A stretch of 64,000 nucleotides of DNA from the NCBI RefSeq assembly GCF_902497775.2, contig NZ_OZ024668.1:3123826-3187825 (forward strand), given 5' to 3'. How positions within the stretch are numbered: the first letter of the stretch is position 1; the number at the start of each line of letters is the position of its first letter. The notes under the pieces are model-generated. The model ran no database searches. It saw only the letters and a program-made list of their open reading frames with translations, and was not told the DNA's origin. Source of the stretch: Pseudomonas fluorescens. Its GTDB lineage: Bacteria > Pseudomonadota > Gammaproteobacteria > Pseudomonadales > Pseudomonadaceae. The position numbers and the translations under genes are program-made. Positions 1 through 8,911 of the stretch are shown in pieces.

Positions 1-730
1 GTTTCAAATCACCAAAGTAGTTTTCCCGACTCGCTTGAAGTACTACGCGATAGCAACTTGCAAAACATTGTTCACGAGAAAGTTCCGGAAACTTCACCCT
101 GGCAACTTCGATCAGGTTTTGTGCATCACTGATGCTTCCCAACCGGTCAAATTGAGCGTCAGCCAAGCTAATGGGAGGAAAGGTTTCAGCCAAGGTCTGA
201 TTCGACCGATAGGTGCCAGGCTGCCAAACAGGCTGCTGGTCCCGGTCTAGCCAACTCCAGAACAGGGCCACGCGCAGGAATTGCTCTTTCTGTTCAGGGC
301 TCAATACGCTGGACAACACTTCAGGCATTACACGAGGGTCATAAAAGCGCAGCAATCCAGACTGGCCTCCCCACTCAAGCTGTGAGAGCCCCTGAAGGGA
401 CTTAACCAAAACATCAAACGGCATAGGTGAAATCAACAGCATGAGGCGAGGTAGATGCCCAACCTGTTCAACCAGTTCTTCCAGCCAGGCTTTATGCCGC
501 CAGTCGTCGAGGTTGATTCGCATCAGAATGGGCGCCTGCGTCAACAGTGCCTCCTCTGGTGTTGCGCTGAACAAAGAAAACCAGGACATGCCCGGCTCCA
601 TGAGACGAAGGGCCGGTAATATGGATATATCCCAGCCTGCTTGATCAACCATGACATCGACATGCCCCACGTTCGCGGAGCCGCAAAGGCTTTCTATCTG
701 CTCGATCCAGCGTGTGTAGTGCTCTTGCAT
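1..730 (-). CDS. DUF4123 domain protein (VgrG effector adaptor), 3' end beyond left edge
   Basis: Reading the minus strand from the ATG at 730 gives 243 codons with no stop, so the gene continues past the left edge. The translation begins MQEHYTRWIEQIESLCG and contains the DUF4123 signature region LLRFYDPRVMPEVL near residue 130, preceded by PMPFDVLVKSLQGL. DUF4123 proteins act in the cytoplasm as chaperone/adaptors that load a specific effector onto the VgrG spike encoded next to them. It starts 10 bases after the vgrG stop, so both are probably co-transcribed, and the cognate effector would be expected immediately to the left of this window. Family assignment is by motif; the cargo cannot be known from here. 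Confidence 0.82.
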   Translation of the reverse strand, partial: MQEHYTRWIEQIESLCGSANVGHVDVMVDQAGWDISILPALRLMEPGMSWFSLFSATPEEALLTQAPILMRINLDDWRHKAWLEELVEQVGHLPRLMLLISPMPFDVLVKSLQGLSQLEWGGQSGLLRFYDPRVMPEVLSSVLSPEQKEQFLRVALFWSWLDRDQQPVWQPGTYRSNQTLAETFPPISLADAQFDRLGSISDAQNLIEVARVKFPELSREQCFASCYRVVLQASRENYFGDLK

Positions 731-740
731 TTTTCTACCC

Positions 741-3140
741 TCAGCCGGCAGTGCGCATGACTGCGCCCGCCGCTTGCGTTTGAGCAATTTTCAGACATTC
801 TTCGCACACCGACTGCGGCAATTCGGGCATGGGGAAACTCTGGCTGGCCGTCGTTTCCCAGACATGCTGGCCCTTGAGGTTAAGCTTGCCGGGGCTGTGG
901 ATGTCGATGGCGCCGGCAGGAGTGATACGGATGTAGCCGCCGCCGCAAGCCAGGGTGATGCCGTTTTTGGCGGTCAGTTGCAGGTGGCCCTGTACCGACT
1001 GCATGGTGATGTCTTGCTGGGCAATCAGATTCAACACGTCGCCGTGGGATTCGATTTCCAGCGGTCCCTTGCCGGACACTAGGCGCATGCCTTCCTGCTG
1101 GGCCAGCAGCGAGATGGCCTGATTCGCGTGGAGGGACAGCCGCTGCGCGGCGGCCAGGTTGATTTCGTCGTTGCTTTGCACGTACATCGCATCGCCGCTT
1201 TTGAGCAGCAGGCTGGCAGGGGTCACCGCACCAATACCTTTTGGGGCACTGAGCAGGATGGCCGAGGCATTCAGGTCTTTGGCGCTGTCCTGAAACTGCT
1301 GCAAGCCGACGATGGCGGGCTGGCGGCTATGGTGGGCCTGAGCGATTTCCTGCCAGTCGGCGATTTGCTGTTTGGCTCCCTGGACCTGACTGGAAGCCGG
1401 CTCCATGGTCAGTACGTCACCGATGGCCTTGGCCTGTTCATCAGCACTGATAAACAACCCTTTCCCGCCCCGAATTGCGCCCCAGCCATCGGTGCGCAGC
1501 TCAAAGCCTTCACCGCGCTTGTGCTTCTGCGCATCGACCAGGTGCCCGAGGTTGAGTTGGCTCTTGCCGCTGTGCTCGGTACTGAGCTTGATGTGCTCCT
1601 GCCCGCGCAGGTCTTCCATGCGCAGCTTATTGTTGGCTGGCGTGCGCAACACATTGCGCGTGTAGTCGCGTTTACCCAACGTCACGTGGTCGGGGTGCTG
1701 GCTGTCGTGCAGGGCGTGGGCGATGTACGGACGGTCAGGGTCACCTTGTTCGAAGGCGATGGCTACTTCGGTGCCGGGGATCAGCGGCAGGTGCAGGCCG
1801 TGGGTGTCGCCCGCGTACGGTCGGGCCAGACGCAGCCAGAGGCTTTCTTCACCGGGTTTCCAACTGTCGCGGTCAAACAGAAAATTGACTTTGTAGCGTC
1901 CTTCAATGTCGATGTGGCCGTAGGGGTCGTGTTCCTGCGGGCTGGTGACGCGGGCCGGGACGGTACCAGCGATTTGCGGCTTGTCTTGCAGCGCTGGGCG
2001 AAAGCACACCGTTTCCGAGTAGGGAATGGCCTCAAAACTGACTTCAAAACTGCGATCCCGAGCGGCACGGGTGATCAGTTGGGTGACCACCGCGCCAGGC
2101 GCAAAGGCCTGTGGCGCGCCACCGGATATTTTGAGCACCTGACCAGGCGCCAGGGTGGCACTGCTACTGATGCCGCTGAGTTGAGTCTGGCCATTGAGAT
2201 AACGCTCGTGACGCAAGCGTGCATAAAAATAACCGCTTTCGCTTTGCAGGTCTTCGTCATGGGCATAAGGGTCGCCCAGTACGGTGTACGGTTCAGCGTA
2301 GTGATAAGCCTCGCCGTAGGTGGTACTCGCACCACGGGTTTGGTCGACGTCGCCATTCAGGTGGGCATTAGCGGTACGGTGGTGGTAAGCACGAATGTTA
2401 ACGTGCTGCTCCACCACTTGATGGCTCGATTGCAGGCTCCACGCCCCGTCTTGCCCGCTGCTGCTCAGACCTGATTGCGGGCGATACGCCAGTGCGACGT
2501 CGAATTGGTAGTGACGCTGGTCATCGTGGAACTCCACCACATCGATTTTCAGGCGTTCGTCGCAGGTAAAGCGGTACCAGATGCCGACGTCGGCCAGCAG
2601 GCGGGAGATGAAGGCTAGGTCGCTTTCGCCATACTGCATGACCTGTTCGCGCTTGGGGTATTCACGCACTAGGTTGAAGAGAAAGTCCTGGCCTTCGAAG
2701 TCGTGGCGGGTACGCAGAATACTTTCAACGATCTGCGGCACCGATTGGTGCTGGTAGATCCGAAATTGCCTGCCTTGGCCAAGCAAGGCCAGGTGCGGTT
2801 CCAGGGTAATTTCGTAGCGGGCTTCATCGACGGAGCCAGACAGGCGTTTAAATCCGGTGACCACGCCGTGCAGCGTGCGCAGTGGCTTGACCTTGGGCGC
2901 ACTCAGGCCCAAAAACGGCAGGTTGTGCGGTGCACCATGCAGGCTGAAACTGGCGTTCTGGCCGAGGACTTTTTCGGCGTCGATGTCGCTGTCGAAGCAG
3001 GTGAATTCAACACGGTAGTTGAACGGTTGGCTCAGGGCTTCTTTGCCCTCGAAAGCGAGGACATCGAGCCGTGCGTCAACGTCGCCAACACTCAGTGTGT
3101 GACGGCTGTGATCGAAAAAAGTGCGCAGTTCGTTGAGCAT
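741..3140 (-). CDS. vgrG: Type VI secretion spike protein VgrG (TssI)
   Basis: The 799-residue product has the usual VgrG layout: an N-terminal gp27-like half (about residues 1-380, with HQSVPQIVESIL and QYGESDLAFISRLLADVG), a gp5-like OB-fold region (HDPYGHIDIEGRYKVNF around 410; LRLARPYAGDTHGLHLPL), and a C-terminal DUF2345-type extension (about 560-770) rich in short beta repeats. The last residues hold a CEEC motif. It forms the trimeric tip of the type VI secretion tube. The start is 2 bases after the stop of the TssK-TssH chimera and the DUF4123 gene follows after 10 bases, so all three look like one operon. The gene itself appears intact, unlike its upstream neighbour. Confidence 0.93.
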   Translation of the reverse strand: MLNELRTFFDHSRHTLSVGDVDARLDVLAFEGKEALSQPFNYRVEFTCFDSDIDAEKVLGQNASFSLHGAPHNLPFLGLSAPKVKPLRTLHGVVTGFKRLSGSVDEARYEITLEPHLALLGQGRQFRIYQHQSVPQIVESILRTRHDFEGQDFLFNLVREYPKREQVMQYGESDLAFISRLLADVGIWYRFTCDERLKIDVVEFHDDQRHYQFDVALAYRPQSGLSSSGQDGAWSLQSSHQVVEQHVNIRAYHHRTANAHLNGDVDQTRGASTTYGEAYHYAEPYTVLGDPYAHDEDLQSESGYFYARLRHERYLNGQTQLSGISSSATLAPGQVLKISGGAPQAFAPGAVVTQLITRAARDRSFEVSFEAIPYSETVCFRPALQDKPQIAGTVPARVTSPQEHDPYGHIDIEGRYKVNFLFDRDSWKPGEESLWLRLARPYAGDTHGLHLPLIPGTEVAIAFEQGDPDRPYIAHALHDSQHPDHVTLGKRDYTRNVLRTPANNKLRMEDLRGQEHIKLSTEHSGKSQLNLGHLVDAQKHKRGEGFELRTDGWGAIRGGKGLFISADEQAKAIGDVLTMEPASSQVQGAKQQIADWQEIAQAHHSRQPAIVGLQQFQDSAKDLNASAILLSAPKGIGAVTPASLLLKSGDAMYVQSNDEINLAAAQRLSLHANQAISLLAQQEGMRLVSGKGPLEIESHGDVLNLIAQQDITMQSVQGHLQLTAKNGITLACGGGYIRITPAGAIDIHSPGKLNLKGQHVWETTASQSFPMPELPQSVCEECLKIAQTQAAGAVMRTAG

Positions 3141-3142
3141 GT

Positions 3143-6127
3143 TCAGGCCTCCATGGCTACGGGCGACGCAGTGCCTTGGGCGTCGGTGAAATGCAGGACA
3201 ATGCCTTCTTCATCGCTGTACCCCAGGGTGACACCGAGGGTTTTCTGCTGGGCGGCCTGGCGCTGCAGCAATTGCTGGCTGAGCACCGGCAGGATCTGCT
3301 GGTTGAGCAAGCTGTCGATGTTGCGTGCGCCCGTGTCGGGTAGCAGGCAGGCGGCCACCAGGGCCTCGTTGAGGGCGGCGTCGATCTGGCAGGTCAACCC
3401 ATAGTGACGTTGCAAACGCTTGGCAACCTGAGCGAGCTTGATCGCGACGATGCGTTTGAGGGCATCGGCTTGCAGCGGGCGGTAGATCAAAGTCTGGAAG
3501 CGCGCCAACAAGGCCGGCTGGAAGTGTTCCCGCAGGATCGGGCGCAGCAACTCGTGCAGGGTGCTGTCCGGCGCGCCGGGGAACTCTTGCAGGCAGGCTT
3601 GCAGTTCATCGCTGCCCAGGTTGGAGGTCATGAGGATGACGGTGTTACGAAAATCGATTTCCCGGCCTTCGCCATCGCGCATGCAGCCACGGTCGAAGAC
3701 TTGATAAAACAGGTTGAGGACGTCACGGTGCGCTTTTTCTACCTCATCGAGCAGCACCACGCTGTAAGGACGTTGGCGCACCGCTTCGGTGAGCACACCG
3801 CCCTGGCCATAACCCACATAGCCGGGCGGCGAGCCTTTGAGCTGGCTGACCGTGTGGGCTTCCTGGTATTCCGAGAGGTTGATGGTGATGAGGGACTTTT
3901 CACCGCCAAACAGCTTGTCGGCCAGAGCCAGAGCGGTTTCGGTCTTGCCGACGCCGCTGGTACCCACCAGCAGGAACACGCCCAGTGGCGCTTTTTCGTC
4001 TGTCAGGCCAGTCTTGGCGGCACGCAGGCGTTGAGCCAAGGCACAGAGGGCGTGGTCCTGGCCGATCACCTGTTCACCCAGTTGTTGCTCCAGCTCCAGC
4101 AGGTTGGCTTGTTCGTCCTTGAGCAAGCTGCCCAGGGGCACGCCGGTCCAGTCGGCAATCACTTCGGCCACGCTGCGGGCGTTGACGTCAAGGGACAGCA
4201 ATGGCTGGTTGCCCTGGGCGTCGCTCAGTTGTTGTTGCAGGTGCCGGCAGGCGTCCATCCGTGGCGGTTCGGCCTGACGCGCATCGAGCAATTGTTGGGT
4301 AAGGTCGAGTTCGTGGCGGTATTGCTCCTCAAGCTCAAGTTGCTGGTGGTTCAGCTCGGTGTGTTGCGCGGCGATGATCGCCAGACGCTCGTCAGCGGGG
4401 CTGCCGCTCAGTTGCTGGTCTTCTTTCAGGGCCTGACGTTCCAACTCCAGGGCGGTCTGTCGGGCCTTGAGGCGGACCAACGGCTGGGGCTCGCAATCAA
4501 GGCTCATGCGCACCCGTGCGCTGGCGGTGTCGAGCAGGTCGACGGCCTTGTCCGGTAGTTGGCGACCGGTCAGGTAGCGCCGCGAGAGGTTGACCGCCGC
4601 CTGGACCGCCGCGTCCAAAATATGCACGCCATGGTGGCTGGCATAACGCGCCTTGAGGCCGCGTAGCATCAGACTGGCGTTGGCGTCATCCGGTTCATCG
4701 ACCTTGACCATCTGGAAACGTCGTTCCAGGGCGGCGTCGCGCTCAAAATACTGTTTGTATTCGCTCCAGGTGGTGGCGGCGATGGTACGCAACTCGCCGC
4801 GCGCCAGGGCGGGCTTGAGCAAGTTGGCGGCGTCAGCACCGCCGGCCTGATTGCCGGCGCCGATCAGGGTGGCATGCCCTAGATCGAGGGCGAAATACTG
4901 GTTCTCCAGGCGCAGCGGAATGGCTGCCGGCACATGGCTGAGTGGCTGCAAAGGAACACCGTCGAGGGCGGCGTTGACCAGGTGATTGACATCGTCCGGC
5001 GTCCCCACCTTGCACAGGCGCGGGAACTGGCTCTGCAACTGTGCGGCCGGCATGCGGCAACGCACCGACAGGTAGAAGTCGGCACCGTCCCTCTCACGCA
5101 GGCGTGCATCGTTGAGTGTGACTTGCCAGCGATTGGCCCCCACTTCCTCCAACTCCAGGGCAATAACCCGCGACGGCAGGCTGGCTTCCAGCAAGGTGGA
5201 AATGGTGCGCATCAGGGGTGGGAATACGCTTTCCAACTGTTCGTGTCGGTAAGCAGGAATACAGTCCAGATCCTGTTCCAGCGAAAACGTCAGCAGGCTG
5301 CCGGCCAGCTTGATCAGCTCCAGGTACACCTGCTCGGGGTGCCGTGCTGGATGCGCCTTGAGGTCGGCCAGTACCGGTTGATAGGTGTTCAAGGCATTGA
5401 GCAGCCAGAACAACGACACATCAGCCACGGCGAAATCCGCCATGCGCTGGTTGCTCTCGCGGCGCATGCCCATCAGCCGTTGGCGCTTGGCAGACAACTG
5501 AGTCAGCAGATTATCCAGTTGAGTCAGCAGCCCTGGATGGGCCGCGAAGCTGAGCAACGGCGGCACGTAATCAGAATCAAGATTCCAGGCACCCTGCCCA
5601 TCGCGCACCAGGCGTGCGACCGGGCAGGTCAGGTAAACAGCATTCTCGTCGTCAGCCAGGCGCAGGGTCAGGACGTACTCCAGCACCCCCATCGACTGCA
5701 CCTCGTCGGCGTAGACATCCTGCACTTGCCGCCAGTCCTGGCGATAACGAGTCGGACGGTCAGCACGTGTGCCGTCGAGCACACAGTTGTTGCCATTGGC
5801 TTGCTCCAGCGGCAACGCCAAGAGCAACGTAGTCTCCTGGGCATCATCGGGCAGCAGACGGGCCAGTTCCAAAGCGGGCGGCAGTCGATCTGCGTGGTCG
5901 GTATCAACCAACGTGCCATCAGGCATACGCACCCGCACATGAGTGGCCTTAAGCTTACCCAGGCGTAAGGCTTGCAGGTCGAACGCCACCCCCTGAACAC
6001 CCCAGGGGTGTACCAGCGACAGATGGGCCACACTCTCGTTAGCCCAGGCCTCCCAGCGTGCCTGCTGCTGGAATTGTTGCGGGGACAGTAAGGCCCCCGC
6101 AGCCCATAGGGGGCGGTCGATTTTCAT
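3143..6127 (-). CDS. In-frame chimera of TssK (baseplate) and TssH/ClpV (sheath-recycling ATPase)
   Basis: The 994-residue frame is open throughout but joins two type VI secretion proteins. Residues 1 to about 417 match TssK, the trimeric baseplate subunit: start MKIDRPLWAAGALLSPQQF, central LLNALNTYQPVL, ending ENQYFALDLG. From about residue 420 the sequence is ClpV/TssH starting inside the first AAA+ domain, just after where its Walker B would be: ATLIGAGNQAGGADAANLL, then the sensor/Arg-finger part (TIAATTWSEYKQYF, ALERRFQ), the coiled-coil middle domain (about 560-650) and a complete second AAA+ domain (GTSGVGKT near 720, VVLLDEVEKAH near 792). The joint lies at 4868-4880. TssK normally runs to about 445 residues and ClpV to about 870, so the last part of TssK and the ClpV N-domain plus first Walker A are missing. 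A deletion fusing two genes is the simplest reading; a single assembly error cannot be excluded. Confidence 0.85.
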   Translation of the reverse strand: MKIDRPLWAAGALLSPQQFQQQARWEAWANESVAHLSLVHPWGVQGVAFDLQALRLGKLKATHVRVRMPDGTLVDTDHADRLPPALELARLLPDDAQETTLLLALPLEQANGNNCVLDGTRADRPTRYRQDWRQVQDVYADEVQSMGVLEYVLTLRLADDENAVYLTCPVARLVRDGQGAWNLDSDYVPPLLSFAAHPGLLTQLDNLLTQLSAKRQRLMGMRRESNQRMADFAVADVSLFWLLNALNTYQPVLADLKAHPARHPEQVYLELIKLAGSLLTFSLEQDLDCIPAYRHEQLESVFPPLMRTISTLLEASLPSRVIALELEEVGANRWQVTLNDARLRERDGADFYLSVRCRMPAAQLQSQFPRLCKVGTPDDVNHLVNAALDGVPLQPLSHVPAAIPLRLENQYFALDLGHATLIGAGNQAGGADAANLLKPALARGELRTIAATTWSEYKQYFERDAALERRFQMVKVDEPDDANASLMLRGLKARYASHHGVHILDAAVQAAVNLSRRYLTGRQLPDKAVDLLDTASARVRMSLDCEPQPLVRLKARQTALELERQALKEDQQLSGSPADERLAIIAAQHTELNHQQLELEEQYRHELDLTQQLLDARQAEPPRMDACRHLQQQLSDAQGNQPLLSLDVNARSVAEVIADWTGVPLGSLLKDEQANLLELEQQLGEQVIGQDHALCALAQRLRAAKTGLTDEKAPLGVFLLVGTSGVGKTETALALADKLFGGEKSLITINLSEYQEAHTVSQLKGSPPGYVGYGQGGVLTEAVRQRPYSVVLLDEVEKAHRDVLNLFYQVFDRGCMRDGEGREIDFRNTVILMTSNLGSDELQACLQEFPGAPDSTLHELLRPILREHFQPALLARFQTLIYRPLQADALKRIVAIKLAQVAKRLQRHYGLTCQIDAALNEALVAACLLPDTGARNIDSLLNQQILPVLSQQLLQRQAAQQKTLGVTLGYSDEEGIVLHFTDAQGTASPVAMEA

Positions 6128-6151: not shown

Positions 6152-7693
6152 TTAGGCTTTGGCCTTGGGCATCTGCGAAACCAGCGACAAGTTGACGTCC
6201 ATGCCTTCGACCTGGAAGTGCGGCACCGCGTACAGCTTGACGCGGAAGAAGCCGGGGTTGTCTTCGATGTCTTCGACCGTCACCTTGGCATCACGCAGCG
6301 GGTGGGAGGCTTGCAGGTCATCGCCAGGGTCAGTCATTTCAGTGACCAGGCCACCGATCCACTTGTTCAGTTCCAGCTCCAGCAAACGACGGTCCTTGGT
6401 GGTCCCGATGTTTTCACGCTGGATCAGTTTCAGGTAATGGGCGATACGTGAGAGCAAGAAGATGTATGGCAGGCGTGCGTTGATACGGCTGTTGGCCGTG
6501 GCATCGGCGGTGTCATACAGCGCTGGTTTCTGGGCCGAGTTGGCCGAGAAGAAACACGCATAGTCGCGGTTCTTGTAGTACGACAGCGGGATAAAACCAA
6601 GATTGGCGAATTCGAATTCGCGGGTTTCCGGGATCATCACTTCGGAAGGGATCTTCACCTGATTGCCGGTGCCCAGGTCGTACAGGTGAATGGGCAGATC
6701 GGTGACCGCCCCACCCGATTGTGGCCCGCGAATCTGCACGCACCAACCGTTGGTGATAAAGCTCTTGACCATGTTGGCCGCGAAGGCGAACGAAGCGTTA
6801 GTCCACAGGTATTTCTCGTGATCCGAGCCCTTGACGCTTTCGATGTAGTTGAAGCTGCGCACCGGGACAGTGTCCGGGCCATACGGCAGACGACCCAGCA
6901 CGCGGGGCATGAGCAAACCGATATAACGGGAGTCGTCGCTTTCGCGGAACGCCTTCCACTTAATGTATTCGGCCCGGTCAAAGTAGTTGCCGATATCTTT
7001 GATCTCCGCCACTTCTTCCATCGACTGCTTGCCAAAGAACGCAGGACCTACGGAACCAATGAACGGCATGTGCGCCGCTGCCGACACTTTGGAAATATTG
7101 CGCAGCAGAGCAATGTCCTGCGGGCCACGGTCGAACTCGTAATTGGAAATAGCCGCCGCAATCGGCTCGCCACCCGGGGTGTCGTATTCTTGGGTGTAAG
7201 TGTGCAGATACAGACCGCTCTGGGCAATCTCAGGTGCGTCTTCGAAGTCTTGGACCAGATGGTCCTTACTGATATCCAACAGTTCGATACGCACGTTCTG
7301 ACGGAAATCGGTCTGGTCGATCAGCGATTTCACACCGCGCCAAGTCGACTCGACACGCTGAAAGTCGGGATGATGCATGACCGCGTCGAGTTGACGGCTG
7401 ATCTGTGCATCCAGGGATGCGATGTGCTCATCCAGCAGGGTTTTGTCCAGACGCTCGACTTTATGCAACGACTGTTTGAGCAAATCCAGGAAGACACTGA
7501 CGGCCGCAGTGACTCGCTCATCTGCAGACGCTTCGGACAGGGCCTCGGAATTTTGAAACGCTTCGATGCCACTCAACTGCGCAACCGGGCTGAGATTGAT
7601 CTTGGCGAACAACGCGCCATAGACACCTTGGCCACAGTCTGCGTCGTGGGTTTTAGTCTGTTGCGAGGGTGCGGATGATTGTTCTGCGGACAT
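6152..7693 (-). CDS. tssC: Type VI secretion contractile sheath large subunit TssC (VipB)
   Basis: The 513-residue protein is full length for TssC/EvpB. Recognisable blocks include the N-terminal half around HPDFQRVESTWRGVKSLID (about residue 105), the NYEFDRGPQD block near 185, and the C-terminal EREFEFANLGFIPL-like block (ETREFEFANLGFIPL) near 360, ending with the conserved GMDVNLSLVSQMPK tail. With TssB it builds the contractile sheath in the cytoplasm. A ribosome site (AAGGAAG) precedes the ATG. It lies 35 bases downstream of tssB and 24 bases upstream of the TssK-TssH chimera, the usual B-C-K order. The protein looks intact, but its disassembly ATPase is represented only by a truncated fusion in this window. 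Confidence 0.95.
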   Translation of the reverse strand: MSAEQSSAPSQQTKTHDADCGQGVYGALFAKINLSPVAQLSGIEAFQNSEALSEASADERVTAAVSVFLDLLKQSLHKVERLDKTLLDEHIASLDAQISRQLDAVMHHPDFQRVESTWRGVKSLIDQTDFRQNVRIELLDISKDHLVQDFEDAPEIAQSGLYLHTYTQEYDTPGGEPIAAAISNYEFDRGPQDIALLRNISKVSAAAHMPFIGSVGPAFFGKQSMEEVAEIKDIGNYFDRAEYIKWKAFRESDDSRYIGLLMPRVLGRLPYGPDTVPVRSFNYIESVKGSDHEKYLWTNASFAFAANMVKSFITNGWCVQIRGPQSGGAVTDLPIHLYDLGTGNQVKIPSEVMIPETREFEFANLGFIPLSYYKNRDYACFFSANSAQKPALYDTADATANSRINARLPYIFLLSRIAHYLKLIQRENIGTTKDRRLLELELNKWIGGLVTEMTDPGDDLQASHPLRDAKVTVEDIEDNPGFFRVKLYAVPHFQVEGMDVNLSLVSQMPKAKA

Positions 7694-7728: not shown

Positions 7729-8232
7729 TTAACGAACGTCTTGTGGGGCCAGAGCAGCCAGTTCGGTTCGTAGCTCGTCACTCAGCGCGTCGTCCTTGAG
7801 GATGCGCTCCAGTTCATGGCGAAAGGTGGCGTTATCCAACAGGTTGGATTTGAGGTCGCGCAGCAGATTGCGCATCGCCAGCAGGGCTCGCAGCTGCGGA
7901 ATTTGCCGCGCCACCTGCTCGGGTTCGAAATCTTTCATGTCTTGGAAACTCAATTCGACAGCGGTGTCGACGTTGTCATCGGCCAAGGTATTTTCAACCG
8001 CCAGTTTCAGGCGCGGAGAGAACTCTGCCAGTACGCTGTCGAAGTTGTTTTTATTGATGCAAACTTTGTTTCTTTCAGACAACGGGCGCTGCTCTTTACC
8101 GTTACTGTAATCCCCCATCACCATCAGCTTAAGCGGCAACTCAATTTTCTTCTGTGCGCCACCGGTGTGTAAGTCGAGCTTGATATTGACCCGCGCCTTG
8201 GGCACTTCATTTTGAAAGCTGTTTGACGCCAT
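7729..8232 (-). CDS. tssB: Type VI secretion contractile sheath small subunit TssB (VipA)
   Basis: The 167-residue product starts MASNSFQNEVPKARVNI and contains LPLKLMVMGDYSNGKEQRPL, both typical of TssB/VipA. I place the start at 8232 instead of an in-frame codon at 8247 because a TGGAGGA ribosome site sits at the right distance from the 8232 ATG. TssB and TssC form the sheath heterodimer. This is the first gene of the minus-strand type VI block; upstream lies about 680 bases without a recognisable gene, which presumably carries the promoter. Confidence 0.94.
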   Translation of the reverse strand: MASNSFQNEVPKARVNIKLDLHTGGAQKKIELPLKLMVMGDYSNGKEQRPLSERNKVCINKNNFDSVLAEFSPRLKLAVENTLADDNVDTAVELSFQDMKDFEPEQVARQIPQLRALLAMRNLLRDLKSNLLDNATFRHELERILKDDALSDELRTELAALAPQDVR

Positions 8233-8911
8233 AAATCCTCCAGACACAATTCTACGAGACGGAAAAACCCCATCACAAAAACCAAGCAGCGCAGAGAAAA
8301 AGCAATACTTGGTGTACCGCAGAGTAGGAAACTGCAGAGAGAAATTCTAGTCAGCTCGCAAGCTTAAAAACAACCTAAATATTCAAGCGTTACGAATCCT
8401 TATAAATTTTGTTTTGTATGTGGGATTTTTCCTAAAGTCTATGAGATTTGTCTGATATTGATCGGCGCGGCAATAACATGCCCCACTCAAAGTACTTTTA
8501 GTGGAGGTGGAGCCAGTCCCACGGAGTGCCTGCGCACGCTATTCAAACACCACCCAGAATGCCGAGAAGGCTCGCGACTACCCGACAGACTATTCAGACC
8601 GAGCACTCCAGCAGAGCCAACCAACGCCCCAAACCACCTAGTGCTCAAACAGGAAACGACAGACAGCCTTCCCCAATTACGCATCCATCTAATGCGAAAA
8701 AATACTGCCAAGTAGTATTTCCGAAAGCGCATTACATCCCAACTCAAAATAGGAAGACCTCACGACAGCAGCTCACGCCTACATGATGGCGCGACACGAA
8801 TAGTTACAAACAGAATCACTCTTTAGATTACTCCTGCGCTATTTAGGAATTTTCCTACATTATTTAGCTCTCCATCTTGTTATAAGCCTCGTTTGAAGCG
8901 ATGGTTTATCT
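8233..8911. other. AT-richer gap with no supported gene
   Basis: Several short frames exist here on both strands, up to 86 codons, but none has a convincing ribosome site, family motif or codon pattern. The stretch is visibly richer in A/T than the flanking genes and probably contains the tssB promoter. I looked for a sigma-54 -24/-12 element on the minus strand; the best TTGGCA match near 8705-8715 has the wrong spacing. Remnants of deleted type VI genes could lie here but I cannot recognise any. Confidence 0.4.

Follow-up and report, generated by a model that had tools for sequence, protein, structure and literature searches.

TssK is a baseplate protein of the T6SS and ClpV/TssH is the ATPase that recycles its sheath. 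The two are products of separate genes, and a complete T6SS comprises tssA, tssB, tssC, tssE, tssF, tssG, tssJ, tssK, tssL, tssM, clpV, hcp, and vgrG. According to PMC6300606, the TssK head domain contacts TssL and TssM, and PMC5048182 describes the N-terminal domain of ClpV (residues 1-163 in EAEC) as sufficient for TssC binding. PMC3390384 covers HSI-II-like loci of plant-associated Pseudomonas that are incomplete or lack clpV, and PMC4235733 a P. syringae tssB that may be frameshifted. A search of the open-licence literature returned no papers on TssK fusions of the kind described below.

The window, a 64,000-nucleotide stretch of Pseudomonas fluorescens DNA, contains a 994-codon minus-strand ORF with an ATG start and without an internal stop (Table 1). 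The names of the nearest ClpV relatives likewise place the genome in Pseudomonas, and probably in the fluorescens group. The initial annotation had read this ORF as TssK running into ClpV, and profile searches agreed: positions 1-399 of 429 of the TssK profile PF05936 correspond to chimera residues 18-418 (408 bits), followed by positions 291-848 of 852 of the ClpV profile TIGR03345 at residues 420-966 with 780.7 bits, below the equivalog cut-off of 884.95 bits. The joint was mapped by alignment to Pseudomonas sp. M47T1, which has the genes unfused, and falls between fusion nucleotides 1257/1258 (window 4871/4870), inside the junction zone first proposed (4868-4880). The frame stays open across the joint, with neither a stop nor a frameshift, either of which had been named as evidence against a fusion.

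Table 1. Features of the chimeric ORF and neighbouring genes in the window
Feature	Position in window	Strand	Basis
tssK'-'clpV chimeric ORF, 994 aa	3143..6127	-	ORF and profile matches
TssK part, residues 1-419 of 451 (M47T1 numbering)	4871..6127	-	alignment to M47T1
ClpV part, from residue 314 of 888 (M47T1 ORF numbering)	3143..4870	-	profiles and alignment
deletion joint, ~2 bp microhomology 'CA', 4,092 bp missing relative to M47T1	4870..4871	.	alignment
vgrG, 799 aa, starting 2 nt past the chimera's stop	741..3140	-	ORF and profile
presumed DUF4123-like adaptor gene, running off the window start; start codon by eye	1..730	-	putative assignment
tssC, open	6152..7693	-	ORF and profiles
tssB, open	7729..8247	-	ORF and profiles

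On the TssK side, the shoulder and neck (approximately residues 1-315 in EAEC) are present within a single continuous match over residues 1-418 that has small gaps, and the same residues cover positions 1-412 of the 445-residue chain in the solved structure 5m30 (family PF05936/TIGR03353). Unlike a full-length TssK, the chimera lacks the last 32 residues, which lie in the head domain and are the C-terminal end that had been reported as missing, and it continues into ClpV instead; of the 130 residues in the solved C-terminal domain 5m2y, only 1-97 are matched. On the ClpV side, M47T1 carries its first Walker A at residue 238 and its first Walker B at residue 307, and both are absent from the chimera, which resumes at residue 314, just past the Walker B as initially described. 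Residues 1-313 are gone and with them the N-terminal, TssC-binding domain, so that the reported loss of the N-domain and the first Walker A extends to the first Walker B. What is left contains the end of the first AAA+ domain, the lid, the middle region, and the second AAA+ domain with its Walker A/B pair at fusion residues 722 and 791; in place of the two AAA+ modules of ClpV/TssH (TIGR03345), each with a Walker A and B, only the second pair is retained. The earlier description of a complete second AAA+ ring therefore holds for the second domain, and this half would be better described as that domain together with the stump left of the first one. By these alignments, both proteins are broken within folded domains, namely the TssK head and the first AAA+ domain of ClpV.

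The nearest clusters found that lack the deletion were those of Pseudomonas sp. M47T1 (L102/L148), which is the closest intact one, and of P. violetae (L068/L150/L151). Identity to M47T1 is 93.6% over the segment that begins upstream of tssB and ends at the joint, and 91.7% over the segment that continues from there through vgrG; the two alignments are separated by 4,092 bp of M47T1 sequence. At the protein level, the TssK half is 95% identical to M47T1 TssK over 419 residues and the ClpV half 95.7% identical to M47T1 ClpV over 575 residues. The stretch missing here holds the last 32 tssK codons, a 226-aa ORF (tssL), a 598-aa OmpA-like ORF, a 163-aa ORF (hcp), and codons 1-313 of the 888 in clpV, although the true M47T1 clpV start may be a few codons inside the 888-codon ORF; tssL and hcp of M47T1 are named by position, backed by DotU and Hcp family matches in the corresponding stretch of our strain's own paralogous cluster. 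Relative to this syntenic relative the locus carries an internal deletion, as a T6SS deletion remnant should, and the frame is kept, in agreement with the in-frame deletion proposed at the outset. The deletion had been thought to have removed everything between the two genes; it took tssL, the OmpA-like gene, and hcp, and also the ends of tssK and clpV themselves. Within the strain's own genome, the lost stretch is represented only by a 72% paralog at C1:2288798-2292891 and five short patches.

Since a paralogous cluster exists in the genome, an assembly artefact also had to be weighed, in which the 4.1 kb are really present and were collapsed, or two clusters were mis-joined. We judge this very unlikely. 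The genome is a single contig of 5.97 Mb listed as 100 complete, and the aligned parental sequences, read by eye, have only the 2-bp 'CA' in common at the joint, so there is no repeat to collapse. The 4,092 lost bp are divisible by 3, which would occur by chance in 1 case out of 3. Moreover, both halves are nearest to one lineage (M47T1, 92-94%), far above the 78-79% seen with the own paralog, and a mis-join of the strain's own clusters was rejected for this reason.

The expectation that tssK and clpV are normally separate genes was upheld by all 80 named clpV loci, which are the best-scoring of 534 confirmed stretches, include the M47T1 reference, and lean to intact loci. In each of them TssK extended to at least residue 449, ClpV began no later than residue 6, and tssL and hcp matches lay between; the best OmpA-like match also lay between tssK and clpV in 79 (the exception being L096). 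Within this survey, tssK was cut near a contig end in L068 and L078, TssK N-terminal matches were incomplete or split in L096 and L143, and a stop interrupted the ClpV alignment of L145 and the Hcp alignment of L127. The DNA of the fusion was matched at E ≤ 1e-150 in 51 of 398 Pseudomonas genomes, own genome included; among the matches listed at this threshold, for which mostly one or two candidate places were scored in each genome, nucleotide 1258 was spanned by the own match only, and all others end at nucleotide 1258 or before, or begin at 1257 or after. Protein searches gave 25 matches to query residues 1-420 among 7995 scored candidates, none of which is the chimera of the window, and with the whole protein as query (8000 candidates scored) none of the best 120 of 7990 matches covered more than 63% of its length. 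The same chimera, which the initial annotation had suggested looking for in other genomes, was thus absent from the matches listed in both kinds of search, and a conserved fusion architecture was rejected on the combined evidence of the 80 loci, the 398 genomes, and the listed protein matches.

Most of the T6SS cluster extends outside the window. Along the minus strand, vgrG is followed by a DUF4123-like gene, a pair of lipoprotein genes accompanied by a short duplicated piece of the effector N terminus, the gene for a DUF2235-like effector of 779 aa, an ORF of 422 aa, tssM, tssA, tssF, tssG, tssJ, and tssE, and then by a 372-aa OmpA-like gene, a 232-aa ORF, and transposase-like ORFs; the DUF4123-like adaptor and most names beyond the window, the DUF2235-like effector among them, are presumptive assignments. 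The transposase-like ORFs (L040:12787-13646), identified by eye, lie just past the far end of the cluster. One in-frame stop splits tssM (L039:5263-8691 in the own genome) into 822 and 319 codons, compared with an open frame of 1124 in P. violetae, and the remaining compared genes of the cluster are open. Family searches of the own genome found no DotU or Hcp match in the chimera's cluster; with tssK and clpV truncated and fused and tssM interrupted, this cluster falls short of a complete T6SS. The genome as a whole has 4 TssK, 3 DotU, and 3 Hcp matches and two ClpV matches above the cut-off besides the fusion, and because of these the chimera's cluster appears to be redundant in kind. A paralogous cluster in the same genome (L038) has the genes unfused. 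A further TssK-DotU-Hcp cluster was seen at G000:C1:2740451-2743112, near which the own-genome ClpV search gave no match.

We therefore consider it highly probable that the locus is a young deletion remnant, in which a deletion of ~4.1 kb made a non-working relic of a redundant T6SS. A single event with almost no end homology, in one of four TssK-bearing loci, would have removed the tssK tail, tssL, the OmpA-like gene, hcp, and the clpV head, the reading frame being kept by chance. The resulting protein would probably neither dock the baseplate nor recycle the sheath, and the cluster would thereby be unable to fire by itself. Neither half is likely to have kept a working role, because TssL, a contact of the TssK head, is gone and both the TssC-binding domain and the first Walker A/B are absent. 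The initial annotation had allowed for a dead remnant or a protein with a new combined role; the loss of tssL and hcp, the stop in tssM, and the cut domains point strongly toward the former.

A working chimera would have a combined or altered role, for example as a TssK trimer bearing the ClpV D2 motor or as a regulator of the strain's other T6SS of the same type. Its long open frame, the retained second Walker A/B pair, and the unfused paralogous cluster in the same genome speak for such a protein, and so does the pattern of substitution. Compared with M47T1, dN/dS was 0.071 for the tssK part (419 codons) and 0.063 for the clpV part (575 codons), values like those of intact pairs. With L070 as outgroup, nonsynonymous and synonymous changes in the two halves numbered 19:94 on the own branch, compared with 25:94 for M47T1 (Fisher p = 0.50). 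With each of four further outgroups (p = 0.12-0.62), the own branch again had the lower nonsynonymous share. Under a simple model, the neutral share of the own branch was 0, with upper bounds of 3.7-6.4%. Neither dN/dS nor branch counts thus revealed in the two halves the relaxed selection to be expected of a remnant. The purifying-selection check suggested initially found both halves constrained relative to M47T1, which fits a recent deletion and would also fit a constrained chimera. Recency is favoured because of the tssM stop and the missing genes, and the deletion is probably recent. Against a working chimera stand the breaks within the TssK head and within the first AAA+ domain of ClpV, the lost or broken partner genes of the cluster, and the lack of a relative with the same architecture among the loci, genomes, and protein matches listed. 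We consider such a protein extremely improbable, and give equally scant credence to its more specific form, an expressed and selected TssK trimer scaffold with a ClpV D2 motor that modulates the strain's other T6SS of the same type and has been under purifying selection since the fusion.

Rates of neighbouring genes were uneven. With two of four outgroups tssB appeared faster on the own branch (N,S of 6,6 versus 3,30 and 6,14 versus 2,18), and the effect was absent with the remaining two. The dS of tssC to M47T1 was 0.086, compared with 0.33-0.40 for tssB, tssK, clpV, and vgrG, which suggests recombination at tssC; single-gene rates in this cluster therefore need care.

Joins involving TssK were found repeatedly. 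Of the 25 matches to query residues 1-420, all of them long proteins that contain TssK, 22 have it fused to another protein of this cluster type at varied breakpoints, a number that does not count independent events, as some joins are common to several proteins (e.g., P0005-P0007 and P0021-P0023) and some are metagenomic and could be assembly errors. The partners are VgrG (7), TssC (7), ClpV (2), TssA (2, in one case with part of TssM in the middle), TssM (1), TssF (1), an OmpA-like protein (1), and a DUF2235-like effector (1). The remaining three carry what we take to be a UvrC-like tail (P0001), a tail without a match (P0003), and what is presumably a phage-primase-like tail (P0012). Two database proteins, P0004 and P0019, likewise combine an N-terminal TssK and a C-terminal ClpV, and they break elsewhere, which argues further against a working chimera: in M47T1 numbering, P0004 has TssK to ~396 and ClpV from ~724, downstream of the second Walker A (TssK identity 50%), and P0019 has TssK to ~290 and ClpV from ~524 (TssK identity 48%). 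By their breakpoints and identities, both are events separate from that in the window. A protein of Pseudomonas mohnii (P0002), also a Pseudomonas, has a TssK similar to ours (86%) and differs in joining TssK 1-250 in frame with VgrG from residue 129; it occurs on contigs of up to 6.8 Mb. PMC11751169 is cited in this connection for aeruginosa. Some of the long TssK-containing proteins are named plainly, e.g., 'baseplate subunit TssK', and given how TssK joins recur, names alone can overcount working T6SSs. The single locus is of little weight, showing how a redundant T6SS cluster dies. Elsewhere, G024 gave a partial TssK match without a match to cluster proteins, G078 had distant tssB/tssC only, and G077 had a distant T6SS whose TssK is divided between two frames.

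Compatible with the remnant reading is the proposal that the machine was lost and the cargo kept, that is, that the in-frame join persists as vgrG, the adaptor, the effector, and presumed immunity genes stay expressed, for another T6SS or for self-protection. The downstream genes should still be translatable, since the join preserves the frame and the retained 3' end of clpV includes a ribosome-binding-like sequence (GGAGG, within the clpV end as in M47T1, with vgrG beginning just past the chimera's stop), and vgrG and the effector genes might serve another T6SS of the cell. The open vgrG, DUF2235-like effector, and better-matching lipoprotein have 94-97% amino acid identity to M47T1 (adaptor 77%), and vgrG has a dN/dS of 0.07 against M47T1. 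Recency alone accounts for open cargo genes, though, and a second deletion within a cluster of this type shows that preservation of the frame is not required: in G025, another Pseudomonas (L155:8602-10155, G025:C23; 69-genome sample), tssB-tssC-tssK(1-291) is joined out of frame to tssE. We hold retention of the cargo as the reason for the in-frame join to be possible but rather doubtful. In-frame joins might be favoured for the expression of downstream vgrG, effector, and immunity genes; without selection on the frame, in-frame and out-of-frame internal deletions would be expected at a ratio of ~1:2.

The region behind vgrG also differs between the two strains. The DUF2235-like effector gene is preceded here by two lipoprotein genes and the duplicated effector N terminus (L039:10017-13703), and M47T1 has four lipoprotein copies at the corresponding place; these differences suggest a changing immunity/effector array.
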